Notes under the pieces: generated by a model
What the model was told of the DNA's origin: nothing
The model's database searches: none
What the model saw: the letters and a program-made list of their open reading frames with translations, nothing else
DNA from: Nitrososphaeraceae archaeon
GTDB lineage: Archaea; Thermoproteota; Nitrososphaeria; Nitrososphaerales; Nitrososphaeraceae
DNA: 53,626 bases
NCBI GenBank assembly: GCA_021325295.1
Contig: JAJPHM010000015.1
Coordinates: 1 to 53,626 of the forward strand
Direction: 5' to 3'
Program-made: the position numbers and the translations under genes
Shown here: positions 44,900-53,085 of the stretch, one piece after another
Position numbering within the stretch: the first letter of the stretch is position 1
Layout of the letters: each line of letters begins with the position of its first letter

Positions 44900-45017
44900 A
44901 GCGGGGTGGGGAAGCCAGATCCATCCTAACGGAGGCTAGGTGATCCCGGCGGGCTCATAACCCGCAGAGCGGTGGTTCAACAGAATTGCAAAAGTTCGGA
45001 AAGTCCACCCCCCGCTA
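44900..45017 (+). tRNA. Initiator tRNA-Met (CAT) with insertions in D-loop and T-loop
   Basis: Acceptor strands AGCGGGG and CCCCGCT-A pair fully, with A1-U72. The anticodon arm GCGGG-CTCATAA-CCCGC has the three G-C pairs of initiators and anticodon CAT. D stem GGGA/TCCC encloses a D-loop with about 21 extra bases (between agccag and gtgatccc). T stem GGTGG/CCACC encloses about 22 extra bases after TTCAA. These are most simply archaeal tRNA introns at non-canonical sites; exact splice points need bulge-helix-bulge folding. No anticodon-loop intron. The 3' CCA is not encoded. Confidence 0.85.
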
Positions 45018-45061
45018 CTCTATTAGGGTTCGGAAAGTGGGCAAAACTGCCCCTCTTTCAG
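45001..45061 (+). repeat. tRNA 3' end plus terminator, first copy (att-like A)
   Basis: From the T-loop/T-stem of the tRNA through the terminator hairpin, this sequence is repeated at 50266-50325. Both copies share aagtccac, then differ over seven bases of the acceptor strand, then share a long stretch starting tactctattagggttcgg. It is a candidate attachment-site repeat bounding the 5.3-kb island. Confidence 0.75.
45039..45058 (+). terminator. Hairpin terminator after tRNA-Met
   Basis: gggca-aaac-tgccc followed by cctcttt. It is repeated with its flanks at 50304-50323. Confidence 0.6.
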
Positions 45062-45249
45062 CCTCATCTTTCCTAGCTGCACAAACTTTAAAGCTGACGA
45101 CATGATGAAAAATTTTGCTTACGAAGAGGAGACAAGCCTGTGACAATTTTGCAATATTATAGAGCCCTGCCCCCTAAAGAGTGAAAAATAGTGAAATAAA
45201 CATAATCAACTCTACAAGATGGTCTGATTTACTGTGGGAATATGCAATA

Positions 45250-45807
45250 TTATTTGCCAATGGTTGTTGCTTGCCTTGGCATTACCTCAAATTCGACTAC
45301 CTTGTCATCGATTCTACAATTCACTTTGCCGCATACTCTTTCCAAAATAGTATGGTTGTAGTTTGCGAGGTATCTTGACCATTTTATTCCTCTTGTATGC
45401 TTTAATGTCAACCTATATACTTGCTCTTTGCTGTCTATGACATTGTAACTGAATGAGTACCAGCCAGAATATTTGCCAAACTTGTTATAATATGACTGGA
45501 TTATAGATTCCAAGTCATATCGTCCACCAAGCAAAGCCAGTATTAGTCCAAAGTTTTTCATTGACAGTTCTTCAGCTACTTGCTGCAGCTTGTCAGCATC
45601 CATATCATCAACAATATGCTGAAAGCAGGGCTCAGGTACTGTAACTACACCGATTTCCTTTAATGGTAAATCAAAAGTCAATGATTTTCTTAGTAGCTGG
45701 GCCAACAATGTACTGGAATGCATATCTCGCTTTTCTGATTCTCTCCCAAGCAGTTCAGCAATGTCTTCAGGAATGGTATACGTTTTGCGAATAGTCTTGA
45801 CTACCAT
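45250..45807 (-). CDS. Ribbon-helix-helix regulator with unknown C-terminal domain
   Basis: 185 residues from ATG 45807 (MVVKTIRKTYTIPEDIAELL; a start 7 codons earlier is possible). The N-terminus to about residue 45 reads as a ribbon-helix-helix: TIRKTYTIPEDIAELLGRES followed by STLLAQLLRKSL. The rest (MKNFGLILALLGGRYDLESI, then GWYSFSYNVIDSKEQVYRLT and GIKWSRYLANYNHTILE) has a pattern seen in thaumarchaeal hypothetical regulators but is not assigned. It is the first gene inside the tRNA-bounded island, transcribed towards the tRNA. Confidence 0.65.
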   Translation of the reverse strand: MVVKTIRKTYTIPEDIAELLGRESEKRDMHSSTLLAQLLRKSLTFDLPLKEIGVVTVPEPCFQHIVDDMDADKLQQVAEELSMKNFGLILALLGGRYDLESIIQSYYNKFGKYSGWYSFSYNVIDSKEQVYRLTLKHTRGIKWSRYLANYNHTILERVCGKVNCRIDDKVVEFEVMPRQATTIGK

Positions 45808-45932
45808 ATCGAAGCCAATCTGTATCATAAGGTTGTAATATTTACTTTTATGGTAATGAATTCTAGTCTCGCCTTATTAGGGCAAATAATCTTCATATTG
45901 GATTTTTCGATTCTGTTCAAGATGGTATGATA

Positions 45933-46000
45933 AAGTATGAGCTTGTATGCGACTATATGCAGTTATATGATACTATATGCAAAAGTACACCCAAACCTTA
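45933..46000 (+). promoter_or_regulatory. Duplicated promoter region, copy 1
   Basis: 68 bp matching 48361-48428 at 64 positions by hand alignment. It contains a repeated ctatatgca word and ends 23 bp before ATG 46024. The same sequence stands 26 bp before ATG 48455, so both exported-protein units are probably controlled by the same factor. Confidence 0.75.
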
Positions 46001-46023
46001 AGTGTTTTCTGTAAAATGGTTTC

Positions 46024-46146
46024 ATGATGGCAAAAACTAGATGTGTGGCCATAAGTAAGGCGAAATTGATATCATTGCCTACTTTTATGGTAGGAACAGA
46101 CCTACCAGCAATGACATCAATTGAATTAGCTGGAACAATGAGGTGA
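46024..46146 (+). CDS. Small ORF of 40 aa at the start of the exported-protein unit
   Basis: ATG 46024 to TGA 46144-46146 (MMAKTRCVAISKAKLISLPT...). It starts 23 bp behind the duplicated promoter, as expected for a nearly leaderless mRNA, and precedes the exported-protein ORF. A comparable small ORF opens the 24.9-kb unit. It may be a leader peptide or a broken gene start. Confidence 0.3.
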   Translation: MMAKTRCVAISKAKLISLPTFMVGTDLPAMTSIELAGTMR

Positions 46147-46182
46147 TTAGAAATACTGAGAAACCAAACGAAAAATCAGAAA

Positions 46183-46975
46183 TTGAGTGTAATTGTTTCT
46201 GCGATAGCAGCTAGCGTAATTGCAGTCAACCTTAGCGTAGCATCCTTAGCCTATGCATCCGACTATTCTTCTTATGAGGGAGTCCACAAGACTAACGATT
46301 CTAGAGGAGTTTTCGGAGAGATAACCAGATACACCATATATCAGCACAGTAGTATCAAACAACTATCGTACTTACATGGTCTATGTGAATCTGAATAACT
46401 TCCAGAGTCTTGGAGCTGGTGCTTATGCATACTTGAATGCTGCAAATACCGTATCTATAGCTCCAGCAGAGTACTATTACGATGCAGGAGGAGCTGTCTA
46501 TGTGATCCAAGCAAGCGATTATGTTCCATTAAATACTGCCTATGTGGCAAAGGTATTCCAGACAACAAGTTCAACTAGCGACTGCTGGGAAGCATACACA
46601 TACAACGGAGATTCGGATACTAGATGCTTTGCAAAGACTACATATCCGATAAACAATGATGGACAAACAGCGACAGCGCCATATAATGTTCCATATGTAT
46701 CAGGAAAAGATGACATGCCCGGCTTGTTTGACTATTTGCAATCGGGAACAGGATACCCTGTATCATTTGGAGACTACTTTTCATCGAGCACTACAGATGT
46801 TTACAAATGCGAAGCTACGTTGCATGGATATGTACTATCCTACCTCGCAGGTTACTCTGGGAACGGCGACAATGATGACAAAGTTGGAACGGGGCAAGGG
46901 ATTACACTACAAATGACTGCCCACAGACTGATACTTCAATGGAGATGTATGGGTCATAGCCATAAACAAAAATAA
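46183..46975 (+). pseudogene. Frameshifted exported protein gene
   Basis: Frame 1 starts TTG 46183 with a signal peptide (VIVSAIAASVIAVNLSVASL, then AYAS) and stops at 46398. Another frame, open from about 46328, carries the rest: DTPYISTVVSNNYRTYMVYV, then a Tyr/Ala/Ser-rich beta region with SDCWEAYTYNG and DTRCFAKTT, ending 46975. A single-base shift between 46320 and 46340 would join them into about 260 residues. The last 20 residues may be in a wrong frame too. It is either a true pseudogene, phase-variable, or a sequencing error. Confidence 0.65.
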
Positions 46976-47597
46976 GCTAATAGTAATTCCGGTTATTGCT
47001 ATTGCAGCTATCATAGGATCCATACTTGCTATCAGCAATATTGAAAACTCTGTAGCAAACAACGCAAATGCAACTCCAAGTGGCTGTCTTCCAACTACTC
47101 TGACTGTTCTCAAAAATCCCAATCTATCTGTAAATCTGCCTGCAGCATCTTCTTTACCGACAGGATACAGATTAGCAGCAGTAGACGACCTGTACCAGAT
47201 AGTGAATGTCTACTATTCCAACCATGCAATATGCCACCCACAAGAATTGACTCAAGAGTTTACCAATGGGACGATTATACTTCAAATATCTAGCCAACCA
47301 CAATCAATGAACGAATCAGAAATTGCATCAACGACAGCAAAGAATTTAGCTAACATACCTGACGTTACAATACACCCACAAATCCTCACAATTAATGGAC
47401 ACAAGGCAGTTGCTTGGGATCAATACACTGGCAGAAGTGAAGTAATACAAGCTGGAAAAGTAATTAGAGACAATCCAATGCCAATGCCTGCAGGTGTCAT
47501 ACTGTACGATGCATCGGGGCACAAGATGTACTCTATGAGTGCTATGAAGCCATTGAGTGAGCTTCTAACAATAATGAACAGCATTCCACCAAGCTAA
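46956..47597 (+). CDS. Anchored protein with DUF4367-like domain, start codon damaged
   Basis: The frame from 46956 encodes AINKNKLIVIPVIAIAAIIG (membrane anchor) and a domain with TGYRLAAVDDLYQIVNVYY, LTINGHKAVAWDQY, VILYDASGHKMYSMSAMKP and LSELLTIMNSI, which resembles the DUF4367/heat-stable surface-domain pattern. No ATG, GTG or TTG occurs in this frame before GTG 47202, which lies after the anchor. The expected start is ATA at 46956. Either a rare ATA start is used, the start was lost by mutation, or only the anchorless form is made. A T-rich terminator follows at 47603-47620. Confidence 0.6.
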   Translation: MAINKNKLIVIPVIAIAAIIGSILAISNIENSVANNANATPSGCLPTTLTVLKNPNLSVNLPAASSLPTGYRLAAVDDLYQIVNVYYSNHAICHPQELTQEFTNGTIILQISSQPQSMNESEIASTTAKNLANIPDVTIHPQILTINGHKAVAWDQYTGRSEVIQAGKVIRDNPMPMPAGVILYDASGHKMYSMSAMKPLSELLTIMNSIPPS

Positions 47598-47646
47598 ATC
47601 CTTCTTTTTTTATTTTTTAGCTATCACCATCTAATAGCGAACCAAA

Positions 47647-48189
47647 TTGGTAATTCATTTAAACAAGAAAAAGGTTATTTGGATTGCTATCCTTGCGGGC
47701 ATTATTGTAGGAGCCGCTGCGGCTGGCTCGTACATATTCTTCTCTTCTAATAATTACGCTTCACTTACAGTTGCTCAACTGGACGCAAGATTGCTACCAG
47801 CAATGAAATATACGCAAATACCAGATACACTTCAATCTAATATCCCTGACTTTAATCGGGCATTTCAACAAGTTGACACAAAGTATCAACAATATGTACA
47901 AGACTGTCCTGCAAGAAGTGCAGTATATTGTGGAGACATGTCAGCCAAGACAGCTAGTACTGTCAATATAAGCAGGCAGGAGTTTGATTCGCTAATGAAA
48001 GCAATTCAATTTACAAAAATAACGCCAAGCGGAAATGCTGGCGGCAGTGGCAGTAATAATTTCAATGGTCAGCAGCAAGAAAAATGGCAGATCTTTGTCT
48101 ACCAAAATTGTTCTTACCCAGTAACTATTGGAGTTGAAGATCTAGGTAACAAACAGATTTGCTATTATAGCCTCTCGATAAATAAATAG
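47647..48189 (+). CDS. Membrane-anchored extracellular protein, unknown, 180 aa
   Basis: TTG start, basic N-terminus (MVIHLNKKK), anchor helix (VIWIAILAGIIVGAAAAGSY, about 10-29), then an extracellular part with three to five cysteines (QDCPARSAVYCGDM, YQNCSYP, KQICYY), suggesting disulfides, and a Gly/Ser/Asn-rich linker (PSGNAGGSGSNNFNGQQQ). The preceding T-rich terminator suggests separate transcription from the upstream unit. Family not recognised. Confidence 0.65.
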   Translation: MVIHLNKKKVIWIAILAGIIVGAAAAGSYIFFSSNNYASLTVAQLDARLLPAMKYTQIPDTLQSNIPDFNRAFQQVDTKYQQYVQDCPARSAVYCGDMSAKTASTVNISRQEFDSLMKAIQFTKITPSGNAGGSGSNNFNGQQQEKWQIFVYQNCSYPVTIGVEDLGNKQICYYSLSINK

Positions 48190-48360
48190 GCAAGTTCTCC
48201 ATATTGTTTGTCCAGCTCTATATTCAACCTGTGCAAATTCCACTCAAGTCTGCAGACGGTCGCAAAAATTGAAGATTCATCTAATTTGAGCAGAAACTGG
48301 GAATGAGTAGGTTTCATGAAGAAGGGACAAACATTAGCTTTCTTAAAAGCACCTATAATG

Positions 48361-48428
48361 AAGTATGAGCTTGTATGCGACTATATGCAGTCATATGATG
48401 ATATATGCAAAAGTACACCCAAATCTTA
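48361..48428 (+). promoter_or_regulatory. Duplicated promoter region, copy 2
   Basis: Copy of 45933-46000 with four changes, 26 bp before ATG 48455. Conservation covers the whole 68 bp and ends at the expected transcription start, so it is a regulatory unit rather than a coding duplication. Confidence 0.75.
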
Positions 48429-48454
48429 TTAGAATTAAGGTCAATTGACGGCTA

Positions 48455-49258
48455 ATGCCTAGAAAAATACCTCAAATATGGTCAAGGCAGAGTCAGAGTT
48501 TCAAATATTGGGCGCTGCCTTTAGCAGTTTTTTCGTTGCTAGGGGCATCAATATTTGAAGGTTCGCAGAGAGCATATGCAACAGTTTATGGCTATTCCAA
48601 AAGCCCACCTTATGACAGCGCAACAACACAAGTCTATAGCAGCACTGGAACAAACGCATGTAATCCACCTGAAAACAATGGGTTTTACGAAGCAGCAGAA
48701 TGCGCATCGGCAACCAGCTCGAATGGCATGGGAAACATATATGCACTAGCTTACAATAAAGCATTGCCAGAAACTACTATAGAAACCTACGCACAGGCTA
48801 GTATGAATACCTAGGGAGGAAATTCTCCGGTGACACCTTTAGAGTCAAGCAAATACCTCAAGTTCAAGACATCAATAAACTACGAAGGAAATCTCTACAT
48901 AGATGACCTCAGCTACACCGATGCATACTATGTTGTTGGAATTGAAGCCTTTGTCGATCCTTCTGGGACTGGTTCGTGGAGCCAGTATGACAGCCAAGAC
49001 GTACGAGTTTTCCACGACCCAACAGCAGGAACAGTTTATCAGGTAGCTGACTCAGAACCTTACTACACAACAGTGGATGGCCCATCTTCAGGCAAATTCA
49101 GCATGCTAGCAACCAGCACAGTTTATGCAGTTTCAACAGCAGAAGGCTATGAGGCATATGGAGACTTTAACAGCCAGCCGCTGTATGATTTCGCACAAAT
49201 ATCGGGAATGGAAGTGTTGGTGTGCGATACTCAATCGGAGTGTGACTTTGCAACATGA
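48455..49258 (+). pseudogene. Exported protein gene interrupted by an in-frame TAG
   Basis: One continuous frame of 268 codons with a single TAG at 48812-48814. The first part has a signal peptide (WALPLAVFSLLGASIFEGSQ, then AYAT) and a Ser/Tyr/Asn-rich beta region with NACNPPENN and AAECASA. After the stop the frame continues at once as GGNSPVTPLESSKYLKFKTS, then TDAYYVVGIEAFVDPSGTGS, and ends with VLVCDTQSECDFAT. The paired cysteines and unbroken frame suggest one protein of about 267 residues. Cause: nonsense mutation, readthrough or sequencing error. A new GTG start at 48830 could express the second half, but without a signal peptide. The next gene overlaps its stop by 4 bp. Confidence 0.7.
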
Positions 49259-49845
49259 ACAAGAGAAATATCATAATTGCAATATCTGCAGTCGCAGTAG
49301 CTAGTGTACTATTGTCTGTAGTATCCATCACAGGTGCTTCCAGCCAGCCATACAAATTCATAAAGATAACTGACCAGAACACTCCAAAGAAACCTGATGT
49401 CACTCTCTCGCCTTTTCAACTAGTGAATGGCAAGGAAATCCCCATAGTTAGCGGTACAAAAATACCGATAGTAGCTGGCAATAACTCGACAACGATTAGA
49501 CTCCATTTGGTATCTTTTGATGATAGAGACCTTTCATACAAATTCAAACTCTACAATGCAGATGACAAAAAGGCAGCAGGGCTGGCATTGAGCAGACTTA
49601 CTTTGAACAACGAAAGCAATGGACTGCCAAAGGGATTGAATGCTGTACTGGACACCAGTGCAACAGTACTGAAGGCCCATGGTAGCTTGATAGTCACACT
49701 GGCAATAAGCGCGACACCAAGTCTACCACATGGCACATATGATGTAGATGTACTGGCCGTGACTAATAGCGGTACAGCAGGCGGTGTAGGTGGTCTCGAA
49801 GTAGATGATGGAAAGATTCAGACATTCCACATAAGTGTGTCTTGA
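49255..49845 (+). CDS. Membrane-anchored extracellular protein, unknown, 196 aa
   Basis: ATG 49255 overlaps the TGA of the preceding frame. The N-terminus is KRNIIIAISAVAVASVLLSV (signal or anchor), followed by a beta domain (TIRLHLVSFDDRDLSYKFKL, then PSLPHGTYDVDVLAV) like the protein at 25.0 kb, which also partners an exported Tyr/Ser-rich protein. The pair order is reversed here: exported protein first, anchored protein second. A T-rich terminator (ccttttctttttt) follows. Confidence 0.75.
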   Translation: MNKRNIIIAISAVAVASVLLSVVSITGASSQPYKFIKITDQNTPKKPDVTLSPFQLVNGKEIPIVSGTKIPIVAGNNSTTIRLHLVSFDDRDLSYKFKLYNADDKKAAGLALSRLTLNNESNGLPKGLNAVLDTSATVLKAHGSLIVTLAISATPSLPHGTYDVDVLAVTNSGTAGGVGGLEVDDGKIQTFHISVS

Positions 49846-50106
49846 GAACACACCACCTTTTCTTTTTTAGAAACATCATTTTGACATATGGTTTTTGATT
49901 GCAGAAATTTCCTTTGTTCGCTTCGACTTCCGACTCAGATACTAGCTTTCTCGAAAGCACTACCCCACTCTCACTACACCTAGCAATTACCCCTCCGTCA
50001 CTCCCTCAATGCTATATTTTGAGAACTATCTATAGCGCACCGAATAACACATCAGCTATGAACCACCATTTGCATATTTTGGAAACCGAATAGTCATCCG
50101 CTTTTA

Positions 50107-50154
50107 CTGGAAGTTTCACCTTCCAGAAGCTTCCCGAATCCTAGTAGAGTACGG
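50107..50154. repeat. Hairpin plus inverted tRNA-flank motif
   Basis: ctggaag-tttcac-cttccag (50107-50126) is followed by ttcccgaatcctagtagagt (from 50131), a diverged reverse copy of the ctactctattagggttcggaa element at 45.0 and 50.3 kb. The order hairpin-motif mirrors motif-hairpin at 50.28-50.32 kb. Confidence 0.45.
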
Positions 50155-50265
50155 AATCAAAGGTTCCCGCTCTATTTATAGAATGTACATAATTAGTCAC
50201 AATTATGTGGGTAAAAAGTATACTTTGGGAACAAATATGCAAATATTTCATAAAATTCATGTGAG

Positions 50266-50325
50266 AAGTCCACTCCGCACTACTCTATTAGGGTTCGGAA
50301 AGCGGGCAAAACTGCCCCTCTTCAG
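50266..50325 (+). repeat. tRNA 3' end plus terminator, second copy (att-like B)
   Basis: 60-bp copy of 45001-45061. The T-stem-derived aagtccac is kept, the acceptor strand is altered, and the terminator hairpin gggca-aaac-tgccc is kept with one change upstream. No tRNA body precedes it. This is the pattern left by integration at a tRNA gene. Confidence 0.75.
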
Positions 50326-50655
50326 ACGCTGATTTCAAAAAACAATGAAAGGCTTGCGCTCGCTAGATGGAATAGGACAGGCTTGGGTATGTCTCATTGT
50401 CTAGAAGACTGTACTTAATGTTCCAATCAGCGATCAAAGACAGACTATGTGCCTGACTTCAAAATCATAGAGTTAGTTTTTACTAAGTTTCGCTTCCGAA
50501 CCCGAGTAGGCTACGAGCTGCTTCGCGGCCCACATGTAGGTAAGATTTACAATATTCATTGCACATACCGTGCATTTATTGCATAGTTACGATAAAAACT
50601 AACTTGCAATATTTTAAAATCAGTCTGGGTCCTTACAGCATAGCTATCTGTAAAA

Positions 50656-51021
50656 TTAGAGTTTGGATTGATGGTGAATTGCAATTGCTTCGCGTCCACT
50701 AACTGATTTGTGCATCGCTTGTTTGCTCAGCTCTGCATCGAGTGCCATGAATCTCTTTACCACTGGATTCCTCTCATCAAGTGTGTATAGTTGTGCCATT
50801 CCATACCTTCGAGTCTCCTTTACTATGTCAAACTGCACCAGCTCATCCCAGACTTTATAGAAGGTGGTTTTTGAAATGCCTACATTTTCAATGATCTCTT
50901 TCTTAGAATAATCACTCCTATTCTCTAGAAAGAAATCTATTATCCTCAGCTTTGGCGTATCACCCAAATATCTTATGAGCAGAGACCTTTCCTGCACGCT
51001 TTTCATAGTTATCACATGCAT
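50656..51021 (-). CDS. Winged-helix regulator
   Basis: 121 residues with a helix-turn-helix: KLRIIDFFLENRSDYSKKEI, then VGISKTTFYKVWDELVQFDI and a wing (VKETRRYGMAQLYTLDE). The pattern resembles archaeal transcription regulators of the ArsR/MarR-like superfamily. Its 5' end lies 48 bp from the divergent HTH gene start, so they may regulate each other. The start could be the Met at 51021 or the internal Met six codons in (MKSVQERS). Confidence 0.75.
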   Translation of the reverse strand: MHVITMKSVQERSLLIRYLGDTPKLRIIDFFLENRSDYSKKEIIENVGISKTTFYKVWDELVQFDIVKETRRYGMAQLYTLDERNPVVKRFMALDAELSKQAMHKSVSGREAIAIHHQSKL

Positions 51022-51069
51022 AGAAAGTATTTATAGTTGCCTATCAAAGGTATCATAAATGGACTTGCT

Positions 51070-51354
51070 ATGTTTAGCGACGATGAGATTAAGGCCAGAA
51101 TAATACTGAAACTTTACAGGCATGGTAAATGGGGAGCAAGCCACACGTCATTTGAGAACTTGAAGAAGGGTTTTAGCTTAAGGGACCTTGGCAAGGACGG
51201 AGCAAAGAGAGTGGACAAAATTGGTAAGGAAATGATCAAGTCAGGTTTGATAATGTCACACCCTACAGGCTATGGTAAGGAAATTAGTCTAAATCCCAAG
51301 TTCTCGCAGGAATTGCTATTGATTGTACAAAAGTTCTTTCCAGATATCGAATAG
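51070..51354 (+). CDS. Small winged-helix-like protein
   Basis: 94 residues from ATG 51070 (MFSDDEIKARIILKLYRHG). The middle (ASHTSFENLKKGFSLRDLG, GAKRVDKIGKEMIKSGLI, PTGYGKEISLNPK) reads as a compact winged helix, and a very similar theme is common in archaeal accessory regions. The frame continues upstream to 51037 without conserved features. It is divergent from the regulator at 50.7 kb. Confidence 0.7.
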   Translation: MFSDDEIKARIILKLYRHGKWGASHTSFENLKKGFSLRDLGKDGAKRVDKIGKEMIKSGLIMSHPTGYGKEISLNPKFSQELLLIVQKFFPDIE

Positions 51355-51509: not shown

Positions 51510-51717
51510 TTTAGGTAGGTTACAATTTTTTGGTTCAAGACTATTTCGTATCGAATCTCTTACGACCGGCCCACTCCGGGTTTGGAAACATGTCTGAAAT
51601 CGAGTCAACTAGATACTGCTGATTTGTTCTTAAAAAGACCGAAGTATTTGCCTAGTCCAAATCTAACCTGTGAAATTCTGTTTACTCGCACTACTTACTA
51701 TCTCCTACTTTTACCGC

Positions 51718-53085
51718 CTAATTGCCAAAACTTGCTTGAAAATTTCCGGAGCCAAACCAATCTCTGCACAACCCGGAGAACCTGAATCCTGACTTTTCCT
51801 TTCCATACCGCTGCAGCGGCTTTGTCAGATGCCTGTGGGCCTTTGGCACAGGAAGATAGAGGCCCGGCTCAATACTGCGCCTTTTTGGTAGGTATACCTT
51901 GGTTGCAGCGATATCTCTGTATTTGCACCTGTCGCACTGGAAGCCTTTGTTCTTACCTTCAGATTTCATTCTCTTGCCGCATATTTTGCAGACAGGATTC
52001 AAAACATCAAAAATGCAGGCAAGCTCCAGAATGCGAATATACTCTACATTCAGCACCTTTGGATGCTTTACAGTGGGCTTTCTTATTCCACATCCAATCT
52101 CTATAATGTCTCCGGTATCAAGGCTTGCAGCTATTTTCGCCAAACCCGTCGGCTCGTATACTGCGGCCAGCATCGAGCCGCTGCCATCTTCAACTGCAAA
52201 CAGCACATGTCCCCCCTGCATAGCTTGCGGCTTTTCTTTTACCCTGCATCTGACATAGCCGGCGGTATACACCTTGGATTCATTCAATTTCAGCAGGTTC
52301 TGCAGGTGCATATTTGTCCCTTGGTTGGAGCGAAACACCATGTATCCATCGAGCCTTTCTTCTGGCTGCAGCATTGAAAATGCAGACAGGATAGAGTCGG
52401 GGTCTTCGCCCCTTATCCCACAAAAGACCGGATCAGGGCCATGAGGAGCTATTAACACTCGCTTGTTTTTCTCGTCGTAGCTATTGAAGGTGTCAGGGAA
52501 TGCACCATGACATTCAATTACTCTGTTCCTGTCCACGATTCTGGGCGTTCCGCAATTTTCTGGTCTTCTATAGGATATCAGTTCAAAAGTGTAATCTCCA
52601 CTTTCAAGCAGACAACCCATAGCTCCAAGTGAGCCCACCAGTCCTTGGCCGTTTCCAAATGTAAAATATTCAATGCCATTTTCCTTTGCTACTTTCTCTG
52701 CCTTTTGCCTGCTCAGGACATCAAACATTGCAATAGAACTAAACTTGGCTAGTGATGGTGGAATTTTGCCGCAAAGAAACGCAACGGCCGGATTGGCCCC
52801 TGCACCTATAGCCGAGCCTTCTTCAACTGATTGTCGCACAAAATCAACCACCTTATCTGGGTCTTTTGTTCTGACCCGTATGCAGACCGCGCCATTTCCT
52901 CTGGTTTTCCAGGGGATGTTAGGGTTTAGCCGGATCAAAAGTGGGTAATCCACAAGCTTTACGCCCATAGCCCTCAGACGGCCGGTTATCTTGAATGCAA
53001 GATGGGTAGTACAACGACCTAGGCGGGAATCTGTGTCATCGAAGGCGATATGTACAAGCTCTGACTCGCCTGCTTGCCTGCTCAT
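51718..53085 (-). CDS. tiaS: tRNA(Ile2) 2-agmatinylcytidine synthetase
   Basis: Modifies C34 of the CAU-anticodon isoleucine tRNA with agmatine, so that AUA is read as isoleucine. The 455-residue protein shows HIAFDDTDSRLGRCTTHLA at the N-terminus (ATP/metal site), then RLNPNIPWKTRGNGAV, GQGLVGSLGAMGC, an OB-fold (AGYVRCRVKEKPQ) and a C-terminal zinc ribbon (CKICGKRMKSEGKNKGFQC with CDRC). Size and order match archaeal TiaS. The gene stands alone. Confidence 0.95.
   Translation of the reverse strand: MSRQAGESELVHIAFDDTDSRLGRCTTHLAFKITGRLRAMGVKLVDYPLLIRLNPNIPWKTRGNGAVCIRVRTKDPDKVVDFVRQSVEEGSAIGAGANPAVAFLCGKIPPSLAKFSSIAMFDVLSRQKAEKVAKENGIEYFTFGNGQGLVGSLGAMGCLLESGDYTFELISYRRPENCGTPRIVDRNRVIECHGAFPDTFNSYDEKNKRVLIAPHGPDPVFCGIRGEDPDSILSAFSMLQPEERLDGYMVFRSNQGTNMHLQNLLKLNESKVYTAGYVRCRVKEKPQAMQGGHVLFAVEDGSGSMLAAVYEPTGLAKIAASLDTGDIIEIGCGIRKPTVKHPKVLNVEYIRILELACIFDVLNPVCKICGKRMKSEGKNKGFQCDRCKYRDIAATKVYLPKRRSIEPGLYLPVPKAHRHLTKPLQRYGKEKSGFRFSGLCRDWFGSGNFQASFGN

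Follow-up and report, generated by a model that had tools for sequence, protein, structure and literature searches.

What lies between the initiator tRNA gene and its usual neighbor in this archaeon, and how did it come to be there? The locus belongs to a contig of an ammonia-oxidizing soil archaeon of the family Nitrososphaeraceae (JAJPHM010000015.1, positions 1 to 53,626), the whole of which we call the window. It comprises the initiator tRNA gene (tRNA-iMet), a gene for a ribbon-helix-helix (RHH) regulator, five genes for exported or membrane-anchored proteins, and a repeat of the tRNA 3′ end. An earlier note on this DNA had read it as a 5.3-kb island bounded by the tRNA gene and that repeat. 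We found that this region is an insertion, and it is probably the remnant of one or more thaumarchaeal elements integrated at the tRNA gene, keeping a self-contained module made of an RHH regulator, DNA box arrays, and exported proteins.

To compare the locus, we used 69 other genomes of the family, all from other genera. A match to tRNA-iMet was obtained in 61 of them, and nearly all of these also had a match to tiaS; the two genes were convergent and less than 1 kb apart in 58 of the 61 (counted from search tables). The exceptions were one genome with the match at a contig end and two genomes of a single genus (g3) with the two genes on different contigs; the separation in genus g3 was considered as another insertion and rejected, as it reflects a rearrangement with no attachment (att) repeats. 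The usual gap between tRNA-iMet and tiaS in the relatives is 10 to 260 bp. In the window it is 6.7 kb, with tiaS (51718 to 53085, minus strand) forming the right host flank. Because the relatives have tRNA-iMet directly beside tiaS, the insertion is real, and for the same reason its right edge lies near ~51.7 kb, beyond the second copy of the tRNA 3′ end. The 1.4 kb from this copy to tiaS is also missing at this place in the relatives. It holds a divergent pair consisting of a helix-turn-helix (HTH) regulator (50656 to 51021, minus strand) and a winged-HTH-like (wHTH) partner (51037 to 51354, plus strand); genus g6 has conserved this pair elsewhere in its genomes. The insertion at the tRNA gene and the uninterrupted site in relatives are thus as the earlier note anticipated, and the relatives do not share the gene order of the window; the right boundary given there did not hold. 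As a separate observation, four genus g5 genomes (G019, G020, G023, and G024) have a tiaS frame with a single in-frame TGA.

The presumed integration target is the initiator tRNA-Met(CAT) gene (44900 to 45017, plus strand), which has two noncanonical introns, one in the D arm (44919 to 44939) and one in the T loop (44981 to 45002). Its spliced form of 75 nt was folded by ARAGORN as tRNA-Met(CAT), in agreement with the earlier assignment as an initiator tRNA. The unspliced gene was reported neither by ARAGORN nor by an Rfam search, presumably because of the two noncanonical introns; the Rfam search gave only a subthreshold IMPDH match. Intron positions in tRNA-iMet vary among the genera of the family.

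Sequence self-comparison and a genome search showed that the last tRNA exon, together with 40 bp downstream (45001 to 45061, plus strand; copy 1, attL-like), recurs at 50266 to 50325 on the same strand (copy 2), where it may represent an attR-like site or the internal junction of a tandem insertion. Positions 45001 to 45057 and 50266 to 50322 are identical at 53 of 57 nucleotides without a gap (93%), and the full segments, 45001 to 45061 and 50266 to 50325, align with one 1-nt indel. Our genome-wide statements rest on sequence searches of the 2.69-Mb genome, in which the repeat occurs at these two places only (E = 7e-18 for the second copy). The repeat described earlier is therefore confirmed, and its reading as a widespread terminator was rejected, the post-tRNA 22-mer adding just one inverted partial copy. 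Beginning where the T-loop intron meets the last exon, copy 2 carries three differences in the tRNA part (C>T, C>G, and G>A) and one in the following 40 bp. Two smaller repeats were seen here. The sequence GTTCGGAAAG is present twice, at 44994 to 45003, where the T-loop intron ends, and 34 bp farther along at 45028 to 45037, just past the tRNA; copy 2 retains only the second occurrence. Inverted partial copies of the post-tRNA motif TACTCTATTAGGGTTCGGAAAG flank copy 2 at 50130 to 50151 and at 50485 to 50509, both on the minus strand, and the former is found nowhere else in the genome.

Between the two copies are the RHH gene on the minus strand and, on the plus strand, the five exported or anchored protein genes, which form two modules, E1-E2 plus E3, and E4-E5. 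E1 (46183 to 46953) encodes an exported protein that aligned with an intact homolog (L177) in three pieces, with 47% identity in the main one, in frames 1, 2, and 1; it therefore has two frameshifts, near 46327 and at 46890 to 46903. Its membrane-anchored partner, E2 (46962 to 47597), has ATA at the start codon position and matches the L177 partner over its full length with 36% identity, the latter touching DUF4367. E3 (47647 to 48189), an open reading frame (ORF) with a TTG start, encodes a membrane-anchored protein with no homolog in the E1-E2 loci or in the nearest RHH loci. E4 (48455 to 49258) encodes a secreted protein and has one in-frame TAG at 48812 to 48814, and the ORF overlapping its end, E5 (49255 to 49845), encodes a membrane-anchored protein with no homolog among 300 genomes of the order except its own. 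The six exported frames counted earlier are thus five genes, E1 and E4 being split by lesions, while the RHH gene and the exported character of the products stand as described. The lesions in E1, E2, and E4 indicate that the cargo is decaying, unless they are assembly errors.

E1 and E2 make up a conserved pair. E1 is present in only 6 of the 300 genomes of the order, the window's own included; its homologs occur in G042, which has two, and in four genomes that belong to another family. E2 adjoins the E1 homologs wherever the contig extends far enough, and the neighbors are otherwise unrelated. No similarity was found among the five exported proteins of the island, structure prediction for the E1 family was unusable (predicted local distance difference test score [pLDDT] of 38), and the E1 profile matched neither a peptidase A4 protein nor the second half of E4. 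An exported protein of the Peptidase A4 (eqolisin) type was seen in the RHH neighborhood of one other genome, G144 (L196:12867-14051; E = 3e-15).

The two modules share their upstream DNA, in that a 75-nt promoter block is duplicated at 45926 to 46000, upstream of E1, and at 48354 to 48428, upstream of E4. Array and motif searches resolved each block into a composite site on the plus strand. In the first (45926 to 45995), six TATG boxes spaced at exact 10-bp steps precede GTACACCCAAA; in the second (48354 to 48423), the same 11-mer comes after five TATG boxes, plus a TATA, at the same steps. Arrays of four TATG boxes at 10-bp steps occur in the genome at these two island sites only. Like arrays, in inverted reading and again followed by GTACACCCAAA, were found in two of the four loci that carry the nearest RHH relatives, which belong to another family. 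Across 2.4 Mb of loci, every occurrence of the 11-mer had such an array ahead of it; there were five distinct sites, from two families. Four of these five array sites lie 46 to 48 bp ahead of an exported gene and have a promoter-like block that is conserved. In IMG/VR, the window form of the composite site had no matches; 14 matches to the other form were dismissed as chance, none of them having an array.

The association of arrays with RHH genes extends to the wider family. In the DNA upstream of RHH genes (about 30 of them), the density of triple 4-mers with a period of 10 was 0.49 per kb versus 0.01 per kb in control loci (~50-fold), and no other period shows a comparable excess. The box sequences vary between family members, suggesting that each member reads its own box; period-10 arrays with other cores (TGCGTC and TGACGC) are seen upstream of the RHH genes in L207, L216, and L218. 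Exported-like ORFs were also enriched near RHH genes (38 of 139, versus 95 of 996 in controls; P = 4e-8), and remained so when the window and its four nearest relatives were left out (P = 1.6e-5); the predictor of exported proteins was a simple hydropathy rule, with control ORFs called identically. On this statistical association, the arrays are putative operators of the RHH regulator.

The regulator gene itself (45250 to 45828, minus strand) is predicted to join an N-terminal RHH to a C-terminal domain with an H-NOX/V4R/TRAPP-like fold, according to an AlphaFold model with a pLDDT of 91.7. The window protein alone matched no Pfam family; 17 of 30 family members matched CopG_antitoxin (PF12441) and one matched RHH_1, and the best PDB match of the family profile was CopG, a weak one (E = 0.06). 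Residues 52 to 183 of the model matched BcsD, CdpR, H-NOX, and TRAPP-Bet3 over about 120 residues with Z values of 7 to 8.6. These were consistent top rows that fall below a safe margin, the H-NOX match being structural alone at about 5% identity. Since Z values of this size are not decisive, we offer a ligand-sensing role only as a proposal. Links between the V4R and eukaryotic vesicle-transport component folds (PMC2253512) and between the heme-NO-binding and V4R folds (PMC5847659) have been drawn earlier. Of the 300 genomes of the order, 184 had matches to the RHH family. The window protein is closest to RHH proteins of another family (45 to 53% identity); in a tree it groups with these (100/99 support), and the RHH proteins that were sampled within its own family fall elsewhere.

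One of these relatives, 52% identical to the window RHH, resides in a 14.8-kb element at tRNA-His (G260:C12; L229/L230), whose gene order is tRNA-His, a tyrosine-recombinase-like ORF, an actin-like gene matching MreB/ALP models, the RHH gene, and three exported modules. The tRNA 3′ end is repeated there as 13 bp, 14.8 kb away (E = 0.039). The recombinase-like ORF had no Pfam match; its R-K-R-H-Y motifs, read by eye, follow the tyrosine recombinase layout, and relatives of the ORF were found both on the same contig and in the genome of the window. Another integrase of the same family (L230:7578-8621; G260:C12:27578-28621) lies near tRNA-Val, so that two tRNA-linked integrases are present on one 33-kb contig. 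The island resembles this element in its RHH protein, its exported-protein pair modules, and its tRNA 3′-end repeat. On the other hand, the tRNA-His element has kept an integrase and an actin-like gene, its exported proteins are not recognizably homologous to E1 through E5, and no TATG array was found before its modules. The island looks like an element of this type stripped to its regulator and cargo.

Consistent with such stripping, and as the earlier note had stated, the island has no integrase: none of its proteins tested had a Pfam integrase match, and comparison with the G260 integrase gave no match in the island. PF00589 matches in the genome were confined to C33 and C6. A relative of the G260 integrase, 40% identical and apparently intact, is present elsewhere in the window's own genome (C72:79378-80643; L236 and L238) and adjoins an SRPBCC-like gene, the same neighbor as in the tRNA-His element. 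This locus is probably another integrated element, and its integrase might act in trans on the island. A viral origin was rejected, as neither RHH nor E1 relatives were found in IMG/VR and no RHH relative was found in phage or plasmid records. The absence of an integrase, the lesions, and the RHH relative at tRNA-His support the earlier view of the island as the remains of an integrated element with surface-protein cargo, apart from its right boundary.

Several observations weigh against this explanation as it stands. Neither an integrase nor a fragment of one was found in the window. At 57 to 61 bp, the repeat exceeds most thaumarchaeal att sites in length. Copy 2 lies away from the host boundary, host flank starting only near 51.7 kb, and the 40 bp past the tRNA are not found in the relatives' flanks, with no trace even in the relative with the closest tRNA region. 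The frameshifts could be errors of the draft assembly, and the array in L195 precedes a parB-like gene, not an exported gene. In a refinement of this explanation, two elements or rounds of insertion would stand in tandem, one from copy 1 to copy 2 and then a shorter piece with the HTH/wHTH pair up to a decayed third copy, with the 40 bp being an element arm common to copies 1 and 2 and absent from the host. We regard this refinement as possible but less likely than not. It accounts for the extra 1.4 kb right of copy 2 and for the lack of the 40 bp in relatives. A candidate third copy, ACTCGCACTACTTACTAT (51684 to 51701, plus strand), was obtained by searching the 450 bp that precede tiaS for the first 25 nt of copy 2, with the rough place predicted beforehand; it sits where the original site beside tiaS would lie and is suggestive only (P of about 0.01). 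However, its alignment is short and gapped, the arm upstream of it has no significant likeness to the arm upstream of copy 2 (P = 0.12 to 0.27), and the HTH pair may have moved there on its own. Given a strong copy 2 away from the host flank and 40 post-tRNA bp absent in relatives, single and tandem or composite insertions fit equally. We consider it improbable that copy 2 arose by local duplication without a recombinase, the cargo having gathered at a tolerant intergenic spot. The missing integrase, the long repeat, and the inverted partial post-tRNA motif at 50130 to 50151, which suggests local rearrangement, would suit such an origin. Copy 2, however, has its start at the last tRNA exon, which is what one expects of an att core at the 3′ end of a tRNA gene, and an RHH relative resides in an element at another tRNA. 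In addition, of 68 thaumarchaeal elements that have been mapped, 39 are in tRNA genes, including 10 in intron-bearing ones (PMC6563490).

The main functional rival is that the RHH protein, with its phased arrays, served the ancestral element chiefly for partition (as a centromere system), the link to exported proteins being secondary, since L194 and L197 have an actin-like gene close to the RHH relative and L195 has the array-preceded parB-like gene there. Tandem iterons bound by RHH proteins are typical of partition systems, such as ParR/parC and the omega protein of pSM19035. Nevertheless, the island has arrays and no ParM or ParB, and exported genes are enriched beside distant RHH members too. 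We favor regulation because four of the five arrays precede exported genes and those of the island occur without a partition ATPase, which leaves a primary partition role rather unlikely.

Returning to the remnant of a tRNA-integrated element, we propose the following working. Site-specific integration of one or more elements at the tRNA-iMet 3′ end would have restored the tRNA gene and left a displaced copy of its 3′ end, and the integrase and maintenance genes would have been lost afterward. RHH dimers may bind the TATG boxes cooperatively, one helical turn apart, in front of the two promoters, so that a one-component regulator would switch E1-E2(-E3) and E4-E5 together, perhaps on a small ligand. 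The exported products would end up at the cell surface or outside. More tentatively, thaumarchaeal elements might carry, and leave at tRNA genes, a ligand-switched RHH/array module controlling exported pairs, i.e., how the host presents itself to rivals, viruses, and its surroundings; we hold this broader idea to be possible, with the odds against it. In ammonia-oxidizing archaea, integrated elements make up an important share of the accessory DNA, and the majority of their genes lack an assigned role. If the proposal is correct, the module ties a large regulator family both to exported proteins and to a DNA site that can be recognized, which would help regulon prediction in archaea that are hard to manipulate. 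It would also mean that a tRNA-integrated element can shed its integrase and partition genes yet keep its regulator and both operator arrays.

Among known systems, the closest are the cryptic integrated elements (CIEs) of thaumarchaea. Krupovic et al. (2019) mapped 68 insertions, 39 of them in tRNA genes and 10 of these intron-bearing, with sizes of 2.6 to 98 kb and att sites with a median of 17 bp (7 of 68 exceeding 25 bp), and listed the CopG/RHH family arCOG08805 among the recurrent genes (PMC6563490). The island resembles CIEs in its site at the 3′ end of an intron-containing tRNA gene, its direct repeat, its CopG/RHH gene, its small size, and its mostly unknown genes, and differs from them in the missing integrase, the 57- to 61-bp repeat against a median of 17 bp, and the uncertain right boundary (PMC6563490). 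Because an integrase is present by definition in CIEs, we class the island as apparently derived from a CIE, not as a CIE. With the archaeal dark-matter islands of Makarova et al. (2014), it shares lineage-specific secreted and membrane proteins and a mobile, fast-evolving locus; the portion of that survey consulted does not describe an RHH regulator with phased arrays (PMC4158269). Neither phased arrays nor RHH-linked exported pairs were described in the open-access papers searched. The regulator is like the CopG/MetJ/omega-type repressors in its RHH N terminus and in having tandem boxes on one helix face near promoters, and unlike them in the predicted H-NOX/V4R/TRAPP-like domain joined to the RHH, the operator role of its boxes being likewise a prediction. 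What appears to be new here, judging from the sequences compared, is the composite TATG/GTACACCCAAA site before both modules, recurring in another archaeal family beside close RHH relatives.

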